Below are positions 45,096 through 54,154 of a stretch of DNA of 64,000 nt, piece by piece. The position numbers and the translations under genes are program-made. The stretch comes from Phyllobacterium myrsinacearum (GTDB taxonomy: Bacteria > Pseudomonadota > Alphaproteobacteria > Rhizobiales > Rhizobiaceae). Every line of letters starts with the position of its first letter. Within the stretch, counting starts at the first letter, position 1. Under the pieces are notes generated by a model. That model searched no databases and was not told where the DNA came from. It saw only the letters and a list, made by a program, of their open reading frames with translations. The stretch spans positions 1 through 64,000 of the forward strand of contig NZ_PVBT01000005.1 of the NCBI RefSeq assembly GCF_002980555.1, in the 5' to 3' direction.

Positions 45096-46772
45096 TCAGG
45101 CGAAGTGCCGGGCCCGCGGATCGGGAATCGGCACCGCCGCCATCAGCGCCTTCGTATAGTCATCCTGCGGATTCTCGAAAACCGCGCGGCGCGTTCCCAT
45201 TTCGACAATGCGCCCGCCGCGCATGACGGCCACATTGTGCGACATGCGCTCCACCACCGCCATGTCATGCGATATGAAGAGATAGGCGAGCCCCATCGTT
45301 TCCTGCAATTCCAGCATGAGATCGAGGACCCTGGCCCGCACGGAAACGTCGAGCGCCGCCACGCTTTCATCCGCCACGATCAGTTTTGGCTGCAGGGCCA
45401 GGGCACGTGCAATGCAGACGCGCTGGCGCTGACCGCCGGAAAACTCGTGCGGATAGCGCGTCGCCGCGTCCGGCTGCAGGCCGACCCTCCGCAACAGTTC
45501 CGCCACCCGGTCGTCGCGTTCGCTCCGCCCGCCCAGACCGTGAATGATCAAGGGTTCGGCGATGGCAGCCCCCACCGCCATGCGCGGATCGAGCGAGGCA
45601 TAGGGGTCCTGGAAAATCATCTGCGCCGAGCGGCGAACCGGCTGCATCTGCCGGGCAGGCAAGCCGGCAATGTCCCTGCCGTCAATGACGACATTGCCGG
45701 TAAACGGGATCAACCCAAGAACCGCCTTGCCGGTGGTCGATTTACCCGAGCCGCTTTCGCCGACAAGCCCCAATGTTTCACCGGGGCGCAACGTGAACGA
45801 GACATCGTCGACGGCGGCAAGCGGGGGCTTGCCCTTGAACAGCCAGCGTGCCGGGCTGCCATAGGTCACGCTCAGATTGCGGACATGCAGGATCGGCGAA
45901 GCCGATACCGGCTGAGCAACGTCCGTTTCCGCGCTGACGCGCGGCGGCCCTTCGGTTCCCGCATGGGCGCCCAGGCGCGGCACGGCTGCCAATAATTCCT
46001 GAGTATAGGTTTGGCTGGGCTTTTCGAAAATCGACAGCGCCTCGCCCTGTTCAACAATGCGGCCATTCTGCATGATCGCAACCCGGTCCGCCATTTCGGC
46101 GACAACGCCCATGTCGTGGGTAATCAGGATGATCGAGGCGCCGAACTCCTGTTTCAATTCGCGCATCAGTTTCAGGATCTGTGCCTGAACCGTCACATCA
46201 AGCGCCGTCGTCGGTTCATCGGCGATCAGCACTTTCGGGCGGCAGGACAGGGCCATCGCGATCATCACCCGCTGGCGCATGCCCCCGGAAAGTTCGTGCG
46301 GATATTGCGACAGGCGGCGGGCAGGATCGGTGATGTGCACGGCATCGAGCATCCGCCGCGCGATGGCATCGGCCATTCCACCCTCGCTGCCCTGATGTTC
46401 ACGGATGGCTTCCGTCAGCTGAGCCCCGATCGACATGACGGGGTTCAGCGACGTCATCGGTTCCTGGAACACCATCGCCACGTCGCCCCCGCGCACGCTG
46501 CGCATGGCCCGGTTCGACAGCGCGACCAGGTCCTTGTCGCCGAGCCGGATACTGCCCGATGCCACCTGCAGCGAGGCTTTCGGCAGCAGGCCCATGATCG
46601 AGAGCGATGTCACCGATTTGCCGGAGCCGGATTCCCCGGCAATGCACAGTGTTTCCCCGGCATTGAGGTCGAAGCTGATATCGTCGAGCACGCGCCGCCG
46701 TCCTTGCGGCGTACGGGCATCGACGCACAGGTCGCGGACGGTCAGGATGGGCTTTGCGGCAGGCACAATCAC
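45096..46772 (-). CDS. Dipeptide-type ABC transporter ATPase, fused DppD-DppF
   Basis: This 558-residue protein has two ABC ATPase domains in one chain. Domain 1 has [23 protein letters not shown] and [12 protein letters not shown]. Domain 2 has [24 protein letters not shown] and [12 protein letters not shown]. The start is a GTG at 46772 overlapping the stop of the amidase gene (GTGA). It is the last gene of the amiC-like operon and energises the permeases encoded upstream. Its second domain uses DES instead of the usual DEP after Walker B, as in many DppF-like ATPases. Confidence 0.92.
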
Positions 46773-47713
46773 GCGAACACGATCCTCGGGAAGTAGAAGG
46801 AAACCACCCAGTTCGGCGCATCGACGATTTCACTGATGCGCAGATCGCCGCAGACCGAGCAGAGCAGATAGGCATCGATGGCGCTCATGCCATGTTCGGC
46901 GCCCAACAGATCGATCATGCGCATCAGGGCCTCGCGCGCGCCGGTCATCAGATCGGGACCGATGCCCGTGGTCACCTCATAGCCTGCGCCATCGAGATGC
47001 CGGGTCACCGGTTCGGTCGTGGTGAAGCGCGGGCTGTGCAGCCGGGCATCCCTGACCAGTTCGATGGTGGCTTCCACTTCCATCTGGCTTTCGATGGCGG
47101 TGCCGCAGACTTCGCCGTCACCCTGGGCCGCGTGGGTATCGCCGATGGAAAACAGCGCGCCATCCACCTCAACGGGAAGATAGAGCGTCACGCCCGAGGT
47201 CAGGTCGCGAATATCGAGATTGCCGCCAACCCGGCGCGGCGGCACGACGGAATGCAGGCCCGGTTCGGCCGGTGCAACGCCGATCGTTCCGGCGAACGGC
47301 TTCAGCGGCACCCGGCCGCCAGGACCATAAAGCGCCGGTGCCATGCTGATGGGATCATAGGTCCACATGTGCAGAGCGGGTTCCTGGAACTGGTCCGCCA
47401 GCAGGCCGAAACCGGGGATATTGGCGGTCCAGCCGATACCCGACGGGACAAAGCGGCGAATGGTGACCTTCAGGGCATCGCCCGGCTTGGCACCTTCCAC
47501 ATAGACAGGTCCGGTGACGGGATTGATCTTGCCGAAATCGAGCGCGCCGAGGGTTTCCAGCGTCGATCCCTTGCCCAGCTGCCCGCCGGAGGAATCGAGG
47601 CATTCGAAATGAATCGTTTCACCGGCCTTGGCGACCAATGCTGGCTCAAAGTCGCGGTTCCAGCCGAAATGATGTTTTGCACGATGAATGGTGTGGGTGC
47701 AGGCGATGCACAT
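46769..47713 (-). CDS. Acetamidase/formamidase family enzyme
   Basis: This 314-residue protein is an FmdA/AmdA-type amidohydrolase that releases ammonia from small amides such as formamide or acetamide. Family hallmarks include a beta-rich fold with GIGWTANIPGFGLLADQF and ISMAPALYGPGGRVPLKPFAGTIGVAP, followed by GGNLDIRDL, SIGDTHAAQGDGEVCGTAIE and SAIDAYLLCSVCGDLRISE. It lies inside an operon with a transporter and AmiC/AmiR-like regulators, which supports amides as substrates. The exact amide is not known. This is not the AmiE nitrilase-type amidase. Confidence 0.88.
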   Translation of the reverse strand: MCIACTHTIHRAKHHFGWNRDFEPALVAKAGETIHFECLDSSGGQLGKGSTLETLGALDFGKINPVTGPVYVEGAKPGDALKVTIRRFVPSGIGWTANIPGFGLLADQFQEPALHMWTYDPISMAPALYGPGGRVPLKPFAGTIGVAPAEPGLHSVVPPRRVGGNLDIRDLTSGVTLYLPVEVDGALFSIGDTHAAQGDGEVCGTAIESQMEVEATIELVRDARLHSPRFTTTEPVTRHLDGAGYEVTTGIGPDLMTGAREALMRMIDLLGAEHGMSAIDAYLLCSVCGDLRISEIVDAPNWVVSFYFPRIVFA

Positions 47714-47785: not shown

Positions 47786-49405
47786 CTATTGCTTGACGTA
47801 GATCGCGTCGTAATTGATGACACGGGTCGGATCGACATAAATCTTGTCCGAACCGCCCATGCGCGGCGACTTGGCCACAACGCGGCGCTCGTTGATCACG
47901 GGAATCCACGGCGCATCGGCCATGATATCCGTGAAAATCTTGCCCCAGACCGCCGCCCGCTCGGCTGCCTTGGCCGGATCGGACATGGAGTCCGCCGCGA
48001 CCGCACGCTTGTCGAGATCGGCATTGCAGTACCACGACCAGTTCCAGCCGCCGCTGACCGCCCCGGAGCAGCCGAGGATCGGCCCGTAGAAATTCGACGG
48101 ATCGGGGAAATCGGCAATCCACGCCATGCCGCCCGACCAGATCATCGGGGCTTCGCCTTCCGTGCCGCCCGCCGCAATCACGTTGGACTGCGCCAGCGCG
48201 CGCACTTCCGCCTTGACGCCGATAGCGGCCAGATCCTGCTGGATGGCCTGCGCGATGCGTGGCTGCGGATCGGTGTTGGTGGAATAAAGAACCGTCTGGA
48301 AGCCGCTGGGGAAACCGGCCTCGGCCAGCAAAGCCTTGGCCTTGGCCACGTCGTAGGCATAGCCGGCATAGCTCTTGTCATAGCCCGGCATGGCCGGCGG
48401 CAGCGGCTGGCTTGCCGGCGTGGCGCGGCCGTTGAGAATGCGGGTGATGCGCTCCTTGTTGACGGCCATGTTCACCGCCTGGCGCACCTTCACATTGTCG
48501 AAGGGCTTGACCTTGGTGTTGAGCGTCACATAGCCGGTGTGGAGCTGGTCGCCATCCACGATCATCTGCGCACCGGCGGGAGAATTCTTGATCTCGAGGA
48601 ATTTTGCCGGCGGAATGCCGTCACCGGCAATATCGACCTCGCCCTTTTGCAGGCGCAGAAGGGCAACGAGCGGCTCCTGGCCGACTTCCACCGTGAACTT
48701 GTCGATATGCGGCATGTCCTTGACGAAATAATCGGGATTGCGCGCGAAGACGAGACGCTGGCCGATGGTCCATTCCTTCAGGACAAACGTGCCCGAGCCA
48801 ACCGGCTTCTTGCCGAAATCACCACCGGCAGCCTCGACAGCTTCCTGCGGGACAACCGAAGCGAAGTTGATGGCAAGCACATGCAGGAACGTGGCATCCG
48901 GACGCGACAGATGGAAGACCACCGTAGCCGCATCCGGCGCCTCGATGCCTTCAAGTGTCGTGGTCTTGCCGCCTGACAGGTCTTCATACCCCTTGATCGC
49001 ACTGAAGAAGCCGGCACCGGGGCCCTGTGTCTTCGGATTGACCGCACGCTCGATCGAGTATTTGACGTCGGAGGCCACAAGCTCGCGGCCATTGGTGAAC
49101 TTGACACCCTTGCGCAGCTTGAACGTGTAGGTCAGACCGTCAGAGGAGACATCGAACGTTTCGGCAAGGGACGGAACCAGATCAGGCGTTCCGGGCGTAT
49201 AGTCCATCAGGCGCGAGTAAAGGCTCTTGATCATCGACCAGTTGACCCAGTCATAGCCGACGGCCGGATCAAGCGTGGCGATATCGTCCTTGTAGGTGAT
49301 GAGCACATCGCCGCCCTGTTTCGGCGTTTCCTGTGCCCATGCGGGCAGCGGCGATAGGACAAGCACCGTTGCCATGGTGGTATTGCGAAGCCAGCGGTTT
49401 AACAT
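47786..49405 (-). CDS. Periplasmic substrate-binding protein (SBP family 5)
   Basis: This 539-residue solute-binding protein has a signal peptide (about 1-25, ending PAWAQ). The family 5 pattern is clear in GGDVLITYKDDIATLDPAVGYDW and LVPSLAETFDVSSDGLTYTFKLRKGVKFTNGRELVASDVKYSIERA. It should present its ligand to the two permeases encoded upstream. Its ligand is unknown, but the operon's amide regulators and amidase suggest a small amide or an amidated peptide. Confidence 0.92.
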   Translation of the reverse strand: MLNRWLRNTTMATVLVLSPLPAWAQETPKQGGDVLITYKDDIATLDPAVGYDWVNWSMIKSLYSRLMDYTPGTPDLVPSLAETFDVSSDGLTYTFKLRKGVKFTNGRELVASDVKYSIERAVNPKTQGPGAGFFSAIKGYEDLSGGKTTTLEGIEAPDAATVVFHLSRPDATFLHVLAINFASVVPQEAVEAAGGDFGKKPVGSGTFVLKEWTIGQRLVFARNPDYFVKDMPHIDKFTVEVGQEPLVALLRLQKGEVDIAGDGIPPAKFLEIKNSPAGAQMIVDGDQLHTGYVTLNTKVKPFDNVKVRQAVNMAVNKERITRILNGRATPASQPLPPAMPGYDKSYAGYAYDVAKAKALLAEAGFPSGFQTVLYSTNTDPQPRIAQAIQQDLAAIGVKAEVRALAQSNVIAAGGTEGEAPMIWSGGMAWIADFPDPSNFYGPILGCSGAVSGGWNWSWYCNADLDKRAVAADSMSDPAKAAERAAVWGKIFTDIMADAPWIPVINERRVVAKSPRMGGSDKIYVDPTRVINYDAIYVKQ

Positions 49406-49435: not shown

Positions 49436-50356
49436 TCAGCGCGCACGGATACGCGGATCGATCAGCGGCGCGATGATATCGGCAAGCAGGTTGCCGAGAA
49501 CGATCGCGAGCGCGGAAACGAGGGTCACCCCCATGATGATCGGGATGTCGACCTGTTGAATGGCCTGCCATGCCAATTGACCGATGCCCGGCCAGCCATA
49601 GACCGCTTCGACGACGACGACACCGCCCATGAACTGGCCGATATCGATGCCGATCATCGCGATGATCGGCAGGAGCGCATTGGGCAGGGCGTGGCGCAGC
49701 ACGATGCGGACCGACGAGAGGCCCTTGGCCCGCGCAGTGCGCACATAATCCTGATTGAGCACATCGATCATGGCCGAGCGCACCATGCGCGCATACCAGC
49801 CGGCGCCAAGAATGCCGAGGGTGGCCGCGGGCAGCACCACATGGGCCGCCGTTCCGAAGCCGCTCATCGGGAACCAGCCAAGCGTGACGGCAAAGACGTA
49901 GAGCAACAGCAGGGCGACAACGAATTGCGGCGCGGAGACGCCGACGAACGAAGCCATCATCACGACGCGGTCGACCACGCCGCCGCGGCGCAAGGCGGCG
50001 ATGATCCCAAAGATCAGGCCGAGGACGACTTCAACGGCGATGCCTGCGGCCATCAGGATCAAGGTCGCCGGAAGACGGGCAAGGATCAGTGCGCCGACAT
50101 CGGTCTTCTGCGCATAGGAACGGCCGAGATTGCCCTGCAGAATACCCTGCAGATAGGTCCAGAACTGCACGAGCAGGGGCTGATCCAGGCCAAGCTCGCG
50201 GCGGATATTGGCCACCGTCTGTGCGGTAGCGCTGCGTCCGGCAATCATGCGCGCGGGATCCGCCGGCAAGGCATAGAGCAGCAGGAACGTAATCGCGGCA
50301 ACGCCAAGCAGGATCAATGCAGTTTGCACGAGGCGGCGCAGAACAAGCAGAGCCAT
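49436..50356 (-). CDS. Dipeptide-type ABC permease, DppB-like
   Basis: This permease subunit (306 residues) begins MALLVLRRLVQTALILLGVAAITFLLLYALPADPAR at the ATG 50356. The EAA loop is VRTARAKGLSSVRIVLRHALPNALLPIIAMIG. It lies one base after the DppC-like gene and 30 bases before the binding-protein gene. Confidence 0.92.
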   Translation of the reverse strand: MALLVLRRLVQTALILLGVAAITFLLLYALPADPARMIAGRSATAQTVANIRRELGLDQPLLVQFWTYLQGILQGNLGRSYAQKTDVGALILARLPATLILMAAGIAVEVVLGLIFGIIAALRRGGVVDRVVMMASFVGVSAPQFVVALLLLYVFAVTLGWFPMSGFGTAAHVVLPAATLGILGAGWYARMVRSAMIDVLNQDYVRTARAKGLSSVRIVLRHALPNALLPIIAMIGIDIGQFMGGVVVVEAVYGWPGIGQLAWQAIQQVDIPIIMGVTLVSALAIVLGNLLADIIAPLIDPRIRAR

Positions 50357-50357
50357 A

Positions 50358-51206
50358 TCAACCCCTCCCGCGCTGGGTGGGATCGAGAATATCGCGCAGC
50401 GCATCCCCGACCAGATTGAAGGAAAGCGCTGTCAGAAGGATGATCGCACCGGGAAAGAACACCAGCCATGGCGCCGCCTGAAAATAACTCTGGCTCTCGA
50501 AGATGATGTTCCCCCAGGAGGGCTGCGGCGGCTGCACGCCGATACCGAGGAAGGAGAGGGTGGCTTCCAGCAGCACGGTCGTGGCGATGCCGAGCGTTCC
50601 CCAGACAATGGCCGTCGGCATCAGATGCGGCAGGATATGCACGAACAGAATGCGCAGATGCCCGGCCCCGAGCGACCGCTCGGCGAGGATGAAATCGCGC
50701 TCGACCAGTCCGCGCGTTTCCGTGTAGACGATGCGCGCCACCTGCACCCAGTTGACGAGCGCAATGACCATGGCAACGATCCACAGGCTTGGATGCAGCA
50801 GCGCCGCAAGGACAATGGCCAGCAGCAAGGCGGGGAATGCCATCATCAGATCGGTGAACCGCATGAGCAAGCCGCCGATGGGGCCACGCAGATAGCCGGA
50901 CAGGATGCCGACCATGAGCCCGATGCCGACCGCAATCCCGTTGGCGACAAGGCCGATGATCAGCGATGTGCGTGCACCGAAGAGAAGCCGCGAAAACAGA
51001 TCGCGTCCCAGCGTGTCGGTCCCGAGCAGAAACTGCGCGCTGGGCGGCAGCGGTGCGCCCTCAAGCGATAACCCGTCGAACATCTGGTCATCGGGACTGT
51101 AGGGCGCAATCAGCGGCGCGCCCAATGCCAGAAGCACGACGAGCGCAACGACAATCAGGCCGAACATTGCAGACGGCTGGCGCAGCATGCTTTTCAGAAC
51201 GCGCAT
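50358..51206 (-). CDS. Dipeptide-type ABC permease, DppC-like
   Basis: This 282-residue permease has the DppC signature FLLGTDTLGRDLFSRLLFGARTSLIIGL and an EAA loop (LAERSLGAGHLRILFVHILPHLMPTAIVW). Its ATG overlaps the TGA of the AmiR-like gene by one base, so regulator and transporter are translationally coupled. The order DppC before DppB is less common than the reverse. Confidence 0.92.
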   Translation of the reverse strand: MRVLKSMLRQPSAMFGLIVVALVVLLALGAPLIAPYSPDDQMFDGLSLEGAPLPPSAQFLLGTDTLGRDLFSRLLFGARTSLIIGLVANGIAVGIGLMVGILSGYLRGPIGGLLMRFTDLMMAFPALLLAIVLAALLHPSLWIVAMVIALVNWVQVARIVYTETRGLVERDFILAERSLGAGHLRILFVHILPHLMPTAIVWGTLGIATTVLLEATLSFLGIGVQPPQPSWGNIIFESQSYFQAAPWLVFFPGAIILLTALSFNLVGDALRDILDPTQRGRG

Positions 51207-51787
51207 CAGCCAGCCTCCGGCAAGGGTTCAGCCCCGGCAAGAATAAGCGCCGCGACCTGTTCCATGGGGAACCGCCGCTGCATCGCGCAATTGCGCAGGA
51301 TGCTGTAGGCATGCTCCTCGTCGACATTGCGTGCCGCCATGATTTTCTGAACGGCTCCATGCACCAGCGGGCGAAGCCGCACGCGTTCTTCAAGATGCTG
51401 GAGCTGCCTCAACGCCACGGTCCGTTCCGCATGAATGGCAACCGCCATCACAAGCGTGGGATAGACCGCAGAGGCTGCAACCGGCTTGGCAATGATTGCA
51501 CCGGCCCCCTGTTCCATGGCCCATGCGATACGGCCCGGCGCTTCCGACCCGAGCAGGGCGACGACAGGCAGCGGCGCCTTGCTGTCATGCCAGGGCAGAA
51601 GATCATCCCAGCCCTGGTCCGCGTCGACGAGGACAATGTCGGGCAGATCCGTGGATGCCAGGGGCTCCCATTGTACCGAGACATGAAGACCAAGCAGCTT
51701 GAGCTGGCGGGTCAGACGGTCGGTCGTGGCATCGGGCCGATGCAGGATCGTGGCGCGCCAGCCGGTGAAATTGGGGGTCTCTCTCAT
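51206..51787 (-). CDS. AmiR-like antiterminator with ANTAR RNA-binding domain
   Basis: This 193-residue protein has an N-terminal pseudo-receiver domain (about 1-120) and a C-terminal helical ANTAR domain (about 125-185; LRPLVHGAVQKIMAARNVDEEHAYSILRNCAMQRRF). ANTAR proteins bind paired hairpins in leader RNA and stop intrinsic termination. AmiR, the founding member, is held inactive by the amide sensor AmiC. Here the gene overlaps the AmiC-like gene by four bases and lies just inside an operon whose leader has a terminator. The receiver domain lacks a clear phospho-acceptor layout, as in AmiR. Confidence 0.85.
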   Translation of the reverse strand: MRETPNFTGWRATILHRPDATTDRLTRQLKLLGLHVSVQWEPLASTDLPDIVLVDADQGWDDLLPWHDSKAPLPVVALLGSEAPGRIAWAMEQGAGAIIAKPVAASAVYPTLVMAVAIHAERTVALRQLQHLEERVRLRPLVHGAVQKIMAARNVDEEHAYSILRNCAMQRRFPMEQVAALILAGAEPLPEAG

Positions 51788-52920
51788 GAAACGATCCGCA
51801 ATCTGACCGGCGTTTTGGTGCGGCGGCGGGTGAGATAGGGATCGGCGGCAATCGCCGGCTGCGCATTGACGATGTCAAAACCGTTGAGGTCATTGATGCG
51901 GCCAAGCAGGAAGGGCAGCGCCATATGGTTGGTGTCGGGATCGATCCGGACAGGACCGAACACCGTCGACAGCGGCACGCCAGACAGGGCGCGGCGAACC
52001 GCCTGCGGCTCGTCGGTCCCTGCAGCGACAATGGTCTCGCCGCAGAGCTTGACCGCCGCATAGGCGCTGGCGAAAATATTGGACAGGCGCCGCTGCGGCC
52101 CGAACCGCCTCGATGCAGCAGCCTTGAAGGCGAGATTTTCCGGCGAGACGAGGCTGTCGAAATAGGCCGCGACGGAAAAATGTCCGGTCGCCACGCCAGC
52201 GCCGATCTCGTCCAGTTCGCACTCGGACAGATCGCAACTGACGACCGGGCAGTTTTCCGGCAGGAACGCAGAGTCCCTGTCACCGAGCGCCCTGAAGGCC
52301 CGCAGGAAAGCGTAGCTTGCCGGTCCGATCAGATTGTTGAGAACGAAGCTCGGCCGCCGCTGTTCGATATCGAGGATGATGCGCTCGACCGCGGTTTCCT
52401 CCAGCGGCAGGTAGCGTTCTCCCAGCACCTCTCCGCCCGCCTTGCTGATCAGCTCGCGCGCAAGCCGGTTCATCTCCCATCCCCACACATAGTTCGCACC
52501 GACCAGATAGGGCCGCCGGCCATAGCGCGGCAGGAGGTAGTCGAACAACGGCAGCAGATGCTGATTGGGGCACGCCCCGGTATAGATCACGTTTTCATTG
52601 GCCTCGAACCCCTCATAGGGGCACATGTACCAGAGCAGGCCGTCATGCTTTTCGACGAGTGGAATGACTTCCTTGCGGGCAATGGATGTGATGGTTCCGA
52701 CAATGTGGCGGCAGCCATGTTCACGCAGCATGGAGCGGGCCCCTTCGAGATAGTCGGGGATATGACCCTGCGGATCGATGAAGACGGGTTCGACGGCACC
52801 GGGATAAGCCGCCCGGATCTCGTCCATGGCAAATTCGGCCCCGTCGCGGCTGTCACGGCCAATGGCGCCATACGGCCCCGTCGTCGAATAGAGAATGCCA
52901 ATTTTTACCGCGTCGGCCAT
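51784..52920 (-). CDS. AmiC-like cytoplasmic amide sensor (periplasmic-binding-protein fold)
   Basis: This 378-residue protein has a branched-chain amino-acid-binding-protein fold (VKIGILYSTTGPYGAIGRDSRDGAEFAMDEI) but no signal peptide from the ATG at 52920. That places it in the cytoplasm, like the amide sensor AmiC. The block PYEGFEANENVIYTGACPNQHLLPLFDYLL is AmiC/UrtA-like. Coupled to the downstream AmiR-like gene, it probably releases the antiterminator when its ligand binds. A ligand-import role (UrtA-like) is unlikely without a signal peptide. Confidence 0.85.
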   Translation of the reverse strand: MADAVKIGILYSTTGPYGAIGRDSRDGAEFAMDEIRAAYPGAVEPVFIDPQGHIPDYLEGARSMLREHGCRHIVGTITSIARKEVIPLVEKHDGLLWYMCPYEGFEANENVIYTGACPNQHLLPLFDYLLPRYGRRPYLVGANYVWGWEMNRLARELISKAGGEVLGERYLPLEETAVERIILDIEQRRPSFVLNNLIGPASYAFLRAFRALGDRDSAFLPENCPVVSCDLSECELDEIGAGVATGHFSVAAYFDSLVSPENLAFKAAASRRFGPQRRLSNIFASAYAAVKLCGETIVAAGTDEPQAVRRALSGVPLSTVFGPVRIDPDTNHMALPFLLGRINDLNGFDIVNAQPAIAADPYLTRRRTKTPVRLRIVS

Positions 52921-52929
52921 GTCCCCCCC

Positions 52930-52982
52930 AAAACCAAAAACCCCATGACGCAAGCTCCCATCGAGGATGGGGCGTCATGGGG
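52930..52982 (-). terminator. Leader terminator (attenuator) in front of the amiC-like gene
   Basis: A perfect 10-bp stem, CCCCATGACG (52941-52950) with CGTCATGGGG (52973-52982), encloses an inner CCCATC/GATGGG hairpin. In the minus direction it is followed by TTTTTGGTTTTG and then, about ten bases on, the start codon of the sensor gene. A strong terminator inside the leader of an ANTAR-regulated operon is the expected attenuator. Confidence 0.85.
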
Positions 52983-52993
52983 CGAAACTGCCC
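52980..52993 (-). promoter_or_regulatory. Hexaloop hairpin competing with the attenuator
   Basis: On the minus strand GGGC-AGTTTC-GCCC forms a four-pair stem with a six-base loop. Its 3' arm shares bases 52980-52982 with the first arm of the terminator, so the two structures exclude each other. ANTAR targets are hexaloop hairpins with A at loop position 1 and G at position 4; this loop has the A but a U at position 4. Confidence 0.45.
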
Positions 52994-53049
52994 GTCGACT
53001 ATCGAAGTCATGTGGATGCAGACAAGCCACTGCTCAATCTGCAGGCACG

Positions 53050-53079
53050 ATTAAAATACGTGCATACGCCCCTTGTCAA
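53050..53079 (-). promoter_or_regulatory. Promoter of the amide operon
   Basis: On the minus strand a perfect TTGACA (53074-53079) and a TTTAAT -10 (53050-53055) are separated by 18 bases. Transcription would start near 53043 and give a leader of about 120 nt that ends in the attenuator. It is a near-consensus housekeeping promoter, which suits a control point at termination rather than initiation. Confidence 0.75.
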
Positions 53080-53134
53080 GCGGGTATCGGGCAGAATCCC
53101 ACCATGGCGATCAATGCGGGCAAGCAAGCCGGGA

Positions 53135-54154
53135 TTATACGGCGATGCGTGCCTCCGACTGTTCCTGCGCCTTCATGATGGCAAGCTGCCGCTCCCACGC
53201 CAGAGCATCGCCGACGATCAGATCGAGGTCGGCGCGTTTCGGTTCGAAACCGAACACGGTGCGGACACGTTCGTTGCCTGCCACCAGCACCGCCGGATCG
53301 CCCGCACGCCTCGGCGCAGTCCGGACCTCGAAATCCACGCCCGACACGCGCTTGACCGCATCGATGATGTCAAGGACGGAGTAACCATAGCCATAGCCGC
53401 AATTGGCGGCGGTGCTGGCTCCTCCGGCCTCCAGATAGTTCAGGGCGCAAAGGTGCGCCTGCGCAAGGTCGCTGACGTGGATGTAGTCGCGGATGCAGGT
53501 GCCGTCGGCTGTCGGATAGTCCGTTCCATACACCTCGATATGCGAGCGCTCGCCCGTCGCCGCCTGGCTGGCGATCTTGATGAGGTGCGTGGCGCGTGGA
53601 AACGACTGCCCGGAGCGCAATTGCGGGTCGGCACCCGCGACGTTGAAGTAACGCAGCGCCACATAGTTGAAGTCCGGATGGGCCACGGCCGCATCGCGCA
53701 GCATCCACTCGGTCATCAGCTTGGACGTGCCATAGGGCGAGATCGGCTGATGCGGCATGGTTTCTGTGATCGGTGTGCGCTCCGGTTCACCGTAGACCGC
53801 AGCGGTTGACGAGAAAATGAAATGCCTGATGCCTTCGGCAATGGCCGCTTCCATCAGGGAACGCGATTGCACGGTATTGTTGCGGTAATAATAAAGCGGA
53901 TCGCGCACGGAATCGGGAACGACGATCGAACCGGCGAAGTGCAGGATCGCCGTCACATTGTGCCGGCGGATCAGATCGCGCACCAGCGTCTGATCGCCGA
54001 TGTCTCCCTGCACAAAAGGCACATCATCCGGCACCAGCCAGGCGAAACCGCAACTCAGATCGTCAAGGACCACGACCGGCCGGCCGGCATCCTTGAGGGC
54101 AAGCACCATGTGGCTGCCGATATAGCCGGCGCCACCAGTAACAAGAACAGTCAT
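53135..54154 (-). CDS. galE: UDP-glucose 4-epimerase
   Basis: GalE (339 residues) interconverts UDP-glucose and UDP-galactose for polysaccharide synthesis. It is an extended SDR enzyme: the NAD-binding GGAGYIGSH is at residues 7-15, the catalytic Ser/Thr in SSTAAVYGE, and Y-x-x-x-K in PYGTSKLMTEW. The C-terminus carries the RAGDPAVLVAGNER sugar-nucleotide region. It is the most downstream gene of the glycan cluster, 130 bases after the pyruvyl transferase-like gene. Its 3' end lies next to the amide operon promoter. Confidence 0.95.
   Translation of the reverse strand: MTVLVTGGAGYIGSHMVLALKDAGRPVVVLDDLSCGFAWLVPDDVPFVQGDIGDQTLVRDLIRRHNVTAILHFAGSIVVPDSVRDPLYYYRNNTVQSRSLMEAAIAEGIRHFIFSSTAAVYGEPERTPITETMPHQPISPYGTSKLMTEWMLRDAAVAHPDFNYVALRYFNVAGADPQLRSGQSFPRATHLIKIASQAATGERSHIEVYGTDYPTADGTCIRDYIHVSDLAQAHLCALNYLEAGGASTAANCGYGYGYSVLDIIDAVKRVSGVDFEVRTAPRRAGDPAVLVAGNERVRTVFGFEPKRADLDLIVGDALAWERQLAIMKAQEQSEARIAV

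Follow-up and report, generated by a model that had tools for sequence, protein, structure and literature searches.

Upstream of an operon of Phyllobacterium myrsinacearum that begins with the genes for an AmiC-like ligand sensor and an AmiR-like RNA-binding protein of the ANTAR type, and continues with a transporter and an amidase, we observed a leader that is real, conserved and most likely an autogenous attenuator. It combines a promoter match with hairpins, an overlap between two of them and covariation, is linked to amiC-amiR, and carries a hexaloop with A at position 1 (A1) and without G at position 4 (G4). In our reading, to which we give a probability of about 0.84, the AmiC-AmiR pair works this attenuator through the non-G4 hexaloop, with a transcript start, binding of AmiR, control by AmiC, a ligand and a helper role of a further hairpin (P1) as its predicted parts.

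The operon and its promoter

All features considered here lie on the minus strand of the window, the whole 64,000-nucleotide stretch of DNA that was analysed (Table 1). The first-pass annotation, made from the letters of this stretch, had placed a near-consensus promoter at 53050-53079, and the TTGACA-N18-TTTAAT elements agree with this placement in every coordinate, as does the sequence with its estimate of a leader of about 120 nt, up to the amiC ATG at 52920. Across the 89 aligned leaders, TTGAC is invariant, partly by construction since the leaders were cut at the best TTGACA-like site with at most one mismatch; the best spacer is 16-18, and TTTAAT is exact in 38 of the 89. A generic promoter and terminator scan listed neither this promoter nor the terminator at 52941-52982, which we attribute to its rules, as these demand an A at the second position of the -10 hexamer and a loop of 3-8.

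Table 1. Features of the leader and of the operon in the window
Feature	Position	Strand	Basis
-35 hexamer TTGACA	53074..53079	-	sequence
-10 hexamer TTTAAT, spacer 18	53050..53055	-	sequence
Conserved GATTRRGCA by predicted transcript 5' end	53031..53039	-	alignment of 89 leaders
Predicted 5' stem-loop P0	53017..53043	-	MFE only
P1 hairpin GACU-UCGAU-AGUC, variable loop, no ANTAR hexaloop	52997..53009	-	covariation
P2 hairpin GGGC[AGUUUC]GCCC, hexaloop A1 U4, putative antiterminator	52980..52993	-	sequence and conservation
Intrinsic terminator, 11-bp stem with inner CCCATC/GATGGG hairpin	52941..52982	-	sequence, covariation
U-tract TTTTTGGTTTT	52930..52940	-	sequence, aligned leaders
amiC-like ligand sensor, 378 aa, Peripla_BP_5	51784..52920	-	Pfam E 9.6e-104; PDB AmiC 1pea E 3.5e-50
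amiR-like regulator, 193 aa, AmiR_N and ANTAR	51206..51787	-	Pfam; PDB AmiR 1qo0 E 3e-11
oppC-type permease	50358..51206	-	Pfam, gene order
oppB-type permease	49436..50404	-	Pfam, gene order
SBP_bac_5 peptide-type solute-binding protein	47786..49405	-	Pfam, gene order
Acetamidase/formamidase family, FmdA_AmdA	46769..47713	-	Pfam, gene order
Fused Opp/Dpp-type ABC ATPase	45096..46772	-	Pfam, gene order

The identification of the first two genes as an AmiC-like sensor and an ANTAR-containing, AmiR-like protein is borne out by their Pfam domains and their PDB relatives, 1pea and 1qo0. In the orthologous loci among named genome records, taken as the best 80 of 158 relatives, a Peripla_BP sensor gene adjoins a gene encoding AmiR_N and ANTAR, amiC followed by amiR, without exception, and the order amiC-amiR-oppC-oppB is likewise kept in 80 of 80. 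All seven genes, down to the ABC ATPase, are present in 78, with the fetched flank stopping short of the C-terminal end of the ATPase in each of them; the contigs of the other two (L013 and L054) end early. A thiolase gene would fall outside this flank, and its absence from the loci therefore carries no information.

Upstream of the promoter lies a galE-like gene (53135-54154) on the same strand, which ends about 55 bases before the promoter, so that the terminator could conceivably be the ordinary terminator of this gene, without any regulation. This explanation has next to no probability and we reject it: the promoter match sits between galE and the terminator, and galE is the upstream gene in only one of the 80 loci (L005), the leader being kept regardless.

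Two mutually exclusive hairpins

From 5' to 3', the leader consists of P1, a 3-nt linker, P2 and the terminator with its inner hairpin, followed by the U-tract TTTTTGGTTTT. The terminator had been described with a perfect stem of 10 bp; its coordinates stand, whereas the stem has 11 pairs. The hexaloop hairpin at 52980-52993 does share bases with it, the 3' arm of P2 and the 5' arm of the terminator having three nucleotides (52980-52982) in common. The exact terminator stem has a single match in the window and none in 100 shuffles. Free folding of the 126-nt leader yields the terminator at -50.0 kcal/mol, compared with -45.8 kcal/mol when P2 is forced. When the leader is shortened from its 3' end, P2 appears in the minimum free energy fold at lengths of 70, 75, 90 and 100 nt, that is, before the 3' arm of the terminator is complete, and is absent at 60, 66 and 80 nt. 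The leader as a whole folds only modestly better than shuffled sequences (z -2.09), so that folding energy alone is weak evidence, and the motif GGCANNNNNGCC by itself is common, with 59 occurrences in the window, so that the weight rests on conservation. These 59 compare with 25.5 expected from dinucleotide shuffles, and many of them are inverted repeats found on both strands.

The 89 aligned leaders comprise 85 distinct cores, of which 84 were realigned, L064 having been left out because its P1 region aligns poorly. In these 84 cores, 95.4% of the cells of P1 and the terminator are paired, compared with 32.0-42.4% in slid controls, and 13 of the 21 pairs are changed on both sides; the cells changed on both sides number 139, against 27.6 in shuffles, which ignore kinship. 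P2 is paired in 100% of the cells that have a letter on each side. The outer pair of P2 is GC in 74 cores, GU in 8 and AU in 2, and the remaining three of the four P2 pairs are invariant and, as they never vary, say nothing by covariation. Column 42, which varies between C and T, pairs in both P2 and the terminator. Thus, the intrinsic terminator lies downstream of P2 and is mutually exclusive with it, both pairings being kept across the 84 cores. The comparison of orthologous leaders for covarying stems, which the first-pass annotation had proposed, hence came out in favor of its central claim: the terminator covaries, the lack of conservation that it had named as a refuting result did not occur, and mutually exclusive hairpins at the head of an AmiC/AmiR-led transporter operon are supported by conservation, covariation and linkage to amiC-amiR.

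The loop of P2 carries A at position 1 in 84 of 84 cores, as expected of an ANTAR target, and at position 4, where the canonical target has G, it carries U in 67, A in 17 and G in none. Accordingly, the earlier remark that the loop has A1 and lacks G4 is correct for the window and can be made general.

At the 5' end, GATTRRGCA is kept in most of the subfamily and missing from the most divergent rows, and it forms no consistent stem. The predicted stem-loop P0 received no support from covariation, as RNAalifold applied to the whole leader returned only P1 and the terminator. Past the terminator, a second U-tract, set off by GG or GC (TTTTTGGTTTT), recurs in many leaders, including those of a more distant group described below. 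The comparison with Rfam, also proposed earlier, gave no meaningful match: the best hit of the leader at E values up to 10 was one of 19.8 bits to an S. aureus RNA with a gathering score of 56.1, and none of 10 loci (7 amiC-amiR and 3 nasT) had a match at the gathering score.

P1 and the search for a second hexaloop

P1 is preceded by a conserved ACAU. Its helix is paired in 96.0% of cells in the 84 cores, with two of the four pairs changed on both sides, and it is separated from P2 by 3 nt in 83 cores and by 2 nt in one. Enclosed by GAC and GTC, the loop of P1 is not conserved, its length being 7, 6 and 8 nt in 65, 15 and 4 of the 84 cores. Given that the conserved CACATGAC contains an ATG, a leader-peptide attenuator starting from this codon can be conceived; it is extremely improbable and was rejected, because the variable length of the P1 loop, which lies between the ATG and P2, does not keep the frame, and because some members lack the ATG (ACATCGAC).

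Among the 89 leaders of the subfamily, 72 contain a P1-like hairpin that ends 0-3 nt before P2, against 15% of shuffled sequences, and not one of these 72 best P1 hairpins has an A1 hexaloop. When everything upstream of P2 was scanned under looser conditions, six of the 89 leaders (L034, L035, L064, L065, L067 and L068) showed an A1 hexaloop closed by a stem of 4 or more pairs, none with G4; the one in L065 occupies the place of P1. A second upstream hexaloop with both A1 and G4, as in canonical ANTAR targets, was found in none of the 89. These counts bear on the possibility that a second loop escaped notice and that the leader is a canonical dual-hexaloop target, each loop having A1 and G4. 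In favor of this, AmiR belongs to the ANTAR proteins, the overlap of P2 with the terminator is the canonical layout (PMC3369931), and six leaders do carry a second A1 hexaloop; nevertheless, we consider this very unlikely and reject it, since G4 is missing from all 84 P2 loops and all six upstream loops and an A1 hexaloop from all 72 P1 hairpins, whereas pairs of A1/G4 loops were seen in 19 of 19 NasT leaders (see below). The first-pass annotation had been unable to assign a second hexaloop with confidence and had noted the lack of G4; the observation holds, and both are conserved features rather than a failed assignment.

Distribution of the leader

In its own genome, the covariance model of the core yields one strong match (E 5e-26), the next best being at E 4.6. 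At E 0.01, 29 of 297 genomes of the family have a match, one each, and these include all 25 genomes that encode an AmiR with 55% identity or more. Two of the 29 matches precede more distant amiC-amiR pairs (L234 and L236), and two others are weak, with no amiC-amiR genes seen beside them (L235 and L237). Many training sequences came from the same groups, and scoring was limited to 15 candidates per genome under strict filters, so that the useful outcome is that no further good copy was found, not the recovery of the known ones.

These results, along with the elements outside P2, have to be weighed when considering whether a metabolite-binding RNA (riboswitch) or another RNA-binding protein works the switch while AmiR acts elsewhere. 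The conservation of P1 with its ACAU flank and of the 5' GATTRRGCA, which goes beyond the needs of a single hexaloop, would be explained in this way. We nonetheless deem it unlikely: the leader stands beside amiC-amiR in 27 of the 29 matching genomes, the other two matches being weak, a second copy was not found in its own genome by covariance model R1, and the form of P2 is like that of the ANTAR P2 hairpins of NasT leaders. The linkage in cis of the leader with amiC-amiR is also expected from plain co-inheritance.

We analysed a further 60 AmiR loci, of which 45 (L157-L201) encode AmiRs with 30-43% identity. Upstream of amiC, 42 of these 45 have an intrinsic terminator with a GGC[A.....]GCC hairpin beside it, the exceptions being L161, L172, which has G at position 1 (GGC[GATAGA]GCC), and L201. 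The scans of this group required A1, two of them also GGC/GCC, so that the count for A1 holds by construction. The GGC/GCC rescan and the count at position 4 took 43 loci (without L161 and L201), and 39 of the 43 pass a stricter U-tract rule. At position 4, the 42 loops have C in 22 cases, U in 19, A in one and G in none. A P1-like hairpin ends 1-4 nt before P2 in 27 of the 42 distant leaders, against 20% in mononucleotide shuffles; in L158 and L160, P1 has an A1 hexaloop, in both cases without G4. The other 15 loci (L142-L156) gave no accepted amiC leader, with only scattered candidates 200-400 nt upstream in L147, L148, L150 and L156.

The NasT contrast and the residues of AmiR

There are only two ANTAR matches in the genome, AmiR and NasT, the latter being part of a nitrate switch. 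The NasT sample consists of 19 leaders: that of the genome itself, that of G149 and those of 17 hand-picked loci of the family. The nas leader of the genome contains the hexaloops GTC[AACGAA]GAC and GAC[ACAGAC]GTC, and two A1/G4 hexaloops are present in 19 of 19 NasT leaders by a scan that required A1 and G4; the residue that aligns with EutV position 149 is lysine in all 19 proteins. When the A1/G4 condition was lifted, 16 of the 19 still had the same P2 within their three best hairpins, the misses being L240 (cut before the terminator), L244 and L249; a competing register, CAG[GCAAAG]CTG, occurs in L245, L249, L250 and L253. Scanning near nasT for tandem A1/G4 loops under a spacing rule of 12-40 nt gave none, and both loops were seen once the rule was dropped. 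The nas leader adjoins nasT-nasS outside the window (L233:8042-8431, contig C5 at about 96.0-96.4 kb). It scores 27.4 bits against the narK RNA of Rfam, below the gathering score of 43.2, which suggests that the narK RNA may be a NasT/ANTAR target.

In the structure of EutV, R142, K149 and E160 form hydrogen bonds with G4, on which Y164 stacks; binding drops 60-fold in E160A and 55-fold in Y164A, K149 not being among the mutants described (PMC8934654). The AmiR of the window retains R142, E160, Y164, R168, M172 and R175 of the contact residues, whereas K149, K143 and K147 are replaced by V, P and G. With R142, E160 and Y164 among the retained residues, a flipped base other than G at position 4 is still plausible. 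At position 149, the 89 AmiRs of the subfamily have V, I, L or M, and those of L157-L201 never have K.

The difference in loops between AmiR and NasT is a contrast of two groups of paralogs, perhaps a single evolutionary event. A strict rule that couples K149 to G4 has a counterexample in the putative amiE leader L142, where the AmiR has K149 and the P2 loop is AACAAG, with A1 and without G4. In another putative amiE leader, L154 (Q149), the loops AACAGC and AAAAAA again have A1 without G4, so AmiR proteins as a whole may follow the A1/G4 rule less strictly. Scans of L144 and L145 for a hexaloop-terminator arrangement found none, and two further loci fetched in the search for classical amiE leaders contained no amiE leader.

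Within the subfamily, D160 is present in 12 of 18 AmiRs that go with an A4 loop and in none of 71 that go with a U4 loop, and residue 150 is Q or E in 71 of 71 of the U4 kind and in 2 of 18 of the A4 kind (L064 and L106 oppose the pattern). Because the loop base changes only twice on the AmiC tree, so that a sign test cannot reach significance, this coupling does not amount to independent evidence. In L071, AmiC belongs to the A4 clade while the loop and the AmiR residues are of the U4 kind, as if a joint transfer or a joint change had affected the leader and amiR.

Tentatively, and at slightly less than even odds, we propose that alphaproteobacterial AmiRs read a separate A1/non-G4 code, with U, C or A at position 4 and usually a single hexaloop accompanied by a helper hairpin at a constant distance. 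This code would insulate them from NasT, which reads A1/G4 dual hexaloops within the same cell, and may be set by position 149 (K to V/I/T), perhaps along with positions 150 and 160.

Proposed mechanism and related systems

Transcription would start at about 53043. In the absence of ligand, AmiC would hold AmiR, the terminator would form, and transcription would mostly end before amiC. When a cytoplasmic ligand, probably of the amide type, is present, AmiC would let go of AmiR, which would then bind the hexaloop of P2 and keep the 3' arm of this hairpin out of the terminator, allowing the polymerase to read into amiC, amiR and the genes for the transporter and the amidase. P1, at its fixed distance of 3 nt, would act as a conserved helper hairpin, and the loop would be read by an A1/non-G4 rule, unlike that of the NasT leader of this genome, for which the rule is A1/G4.

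Such a mechanism has close precedents. Ligand-bound AmiC is described as freeing AmiR, which stabilizes P2 so that the polymerase passes (PMC3369936, PMC3369931). The P. aeruginosa amiE leader shares with the leader described here an AmiC-type sensor, an AmiR-type ANTAR antiterminator, a leader terminator and an operon that includes amiC and amiR (PMC3369936). The first-pass annotation regarded the presence of the sensor and the antiterminator inside the regulated unit as a difference from Pseudomonas; this does not hold, as the P. aeruginosa operon is named amiECBRS (PMC3369936), amiC and amiR are within it too, and the gene order alone differs. In the window, amiC-amiR come first, and the transporter together with an FmdA-type amidase replaces amiE. 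Furthermore, compared by description, the hexaloop of the window lacks the G4 of the dual A1/G4 loops reported for amiE (PMC3369931), and the AmiR of 1qo0 has a lysine at position 149, in contrast to the V of the window AmiR.

The nas leaders of NasT/NasS likewise involve an ANTAR protein and a partner sensor, with a P2 that is often GGC[A.....]GCC at the terminator; unlike them, with their two A1/G4 hexaloops and K149, the AmiR leader has one A1/non-G4 hexaloop and a plain hairpin P1. The EutV-dependent eut leaders of E. faecalis share with the window the overlap of P2 with the terminator and the A1 hexaloop, and differ in having two hexaloops, an important G4 and a linker of 5-12 nt (PMC3369931).

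From the EutV structure, a single hexaloop has been proposed as the minimal ANTAR site (PMC8934654), which fits the leader of the window. The genetics of EutV-eutP are at odds with it: induction was ablated by deletion of P1, reduced when A1 or G4 was changed in either of the loops, and drastically lower with a 3-nt linker (PMC3369931), whereas a single hexaloop, the lack of G4 and a linker of 3 nt are usual in the leaders described here. SELEX with NasR likewise favored A1 and G4 (PMC7496416).

Among the literature matches listed, which cover the main texts of openly readable papers, none dealt with AmiR leaders in rhizobia or with ANTAR targets that lack G4 as a class. As described in PMC3369931, the first wide search for such targets started from a seed that retained A1 and G4 in two loops, so that a non-G4 class would escape it.

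The most interesting part of these findings is that a single genome seems to hold a second loop code next to that of NasT. Its two ANTAR systems lend themselves to testing how paralogous RNA-binding proteins are kept separate, since a single residue and a single loop base can be exchanged and the effect measured. For many rhizobia, the attenuator predicts that an uptake operon would be under the control of amides.
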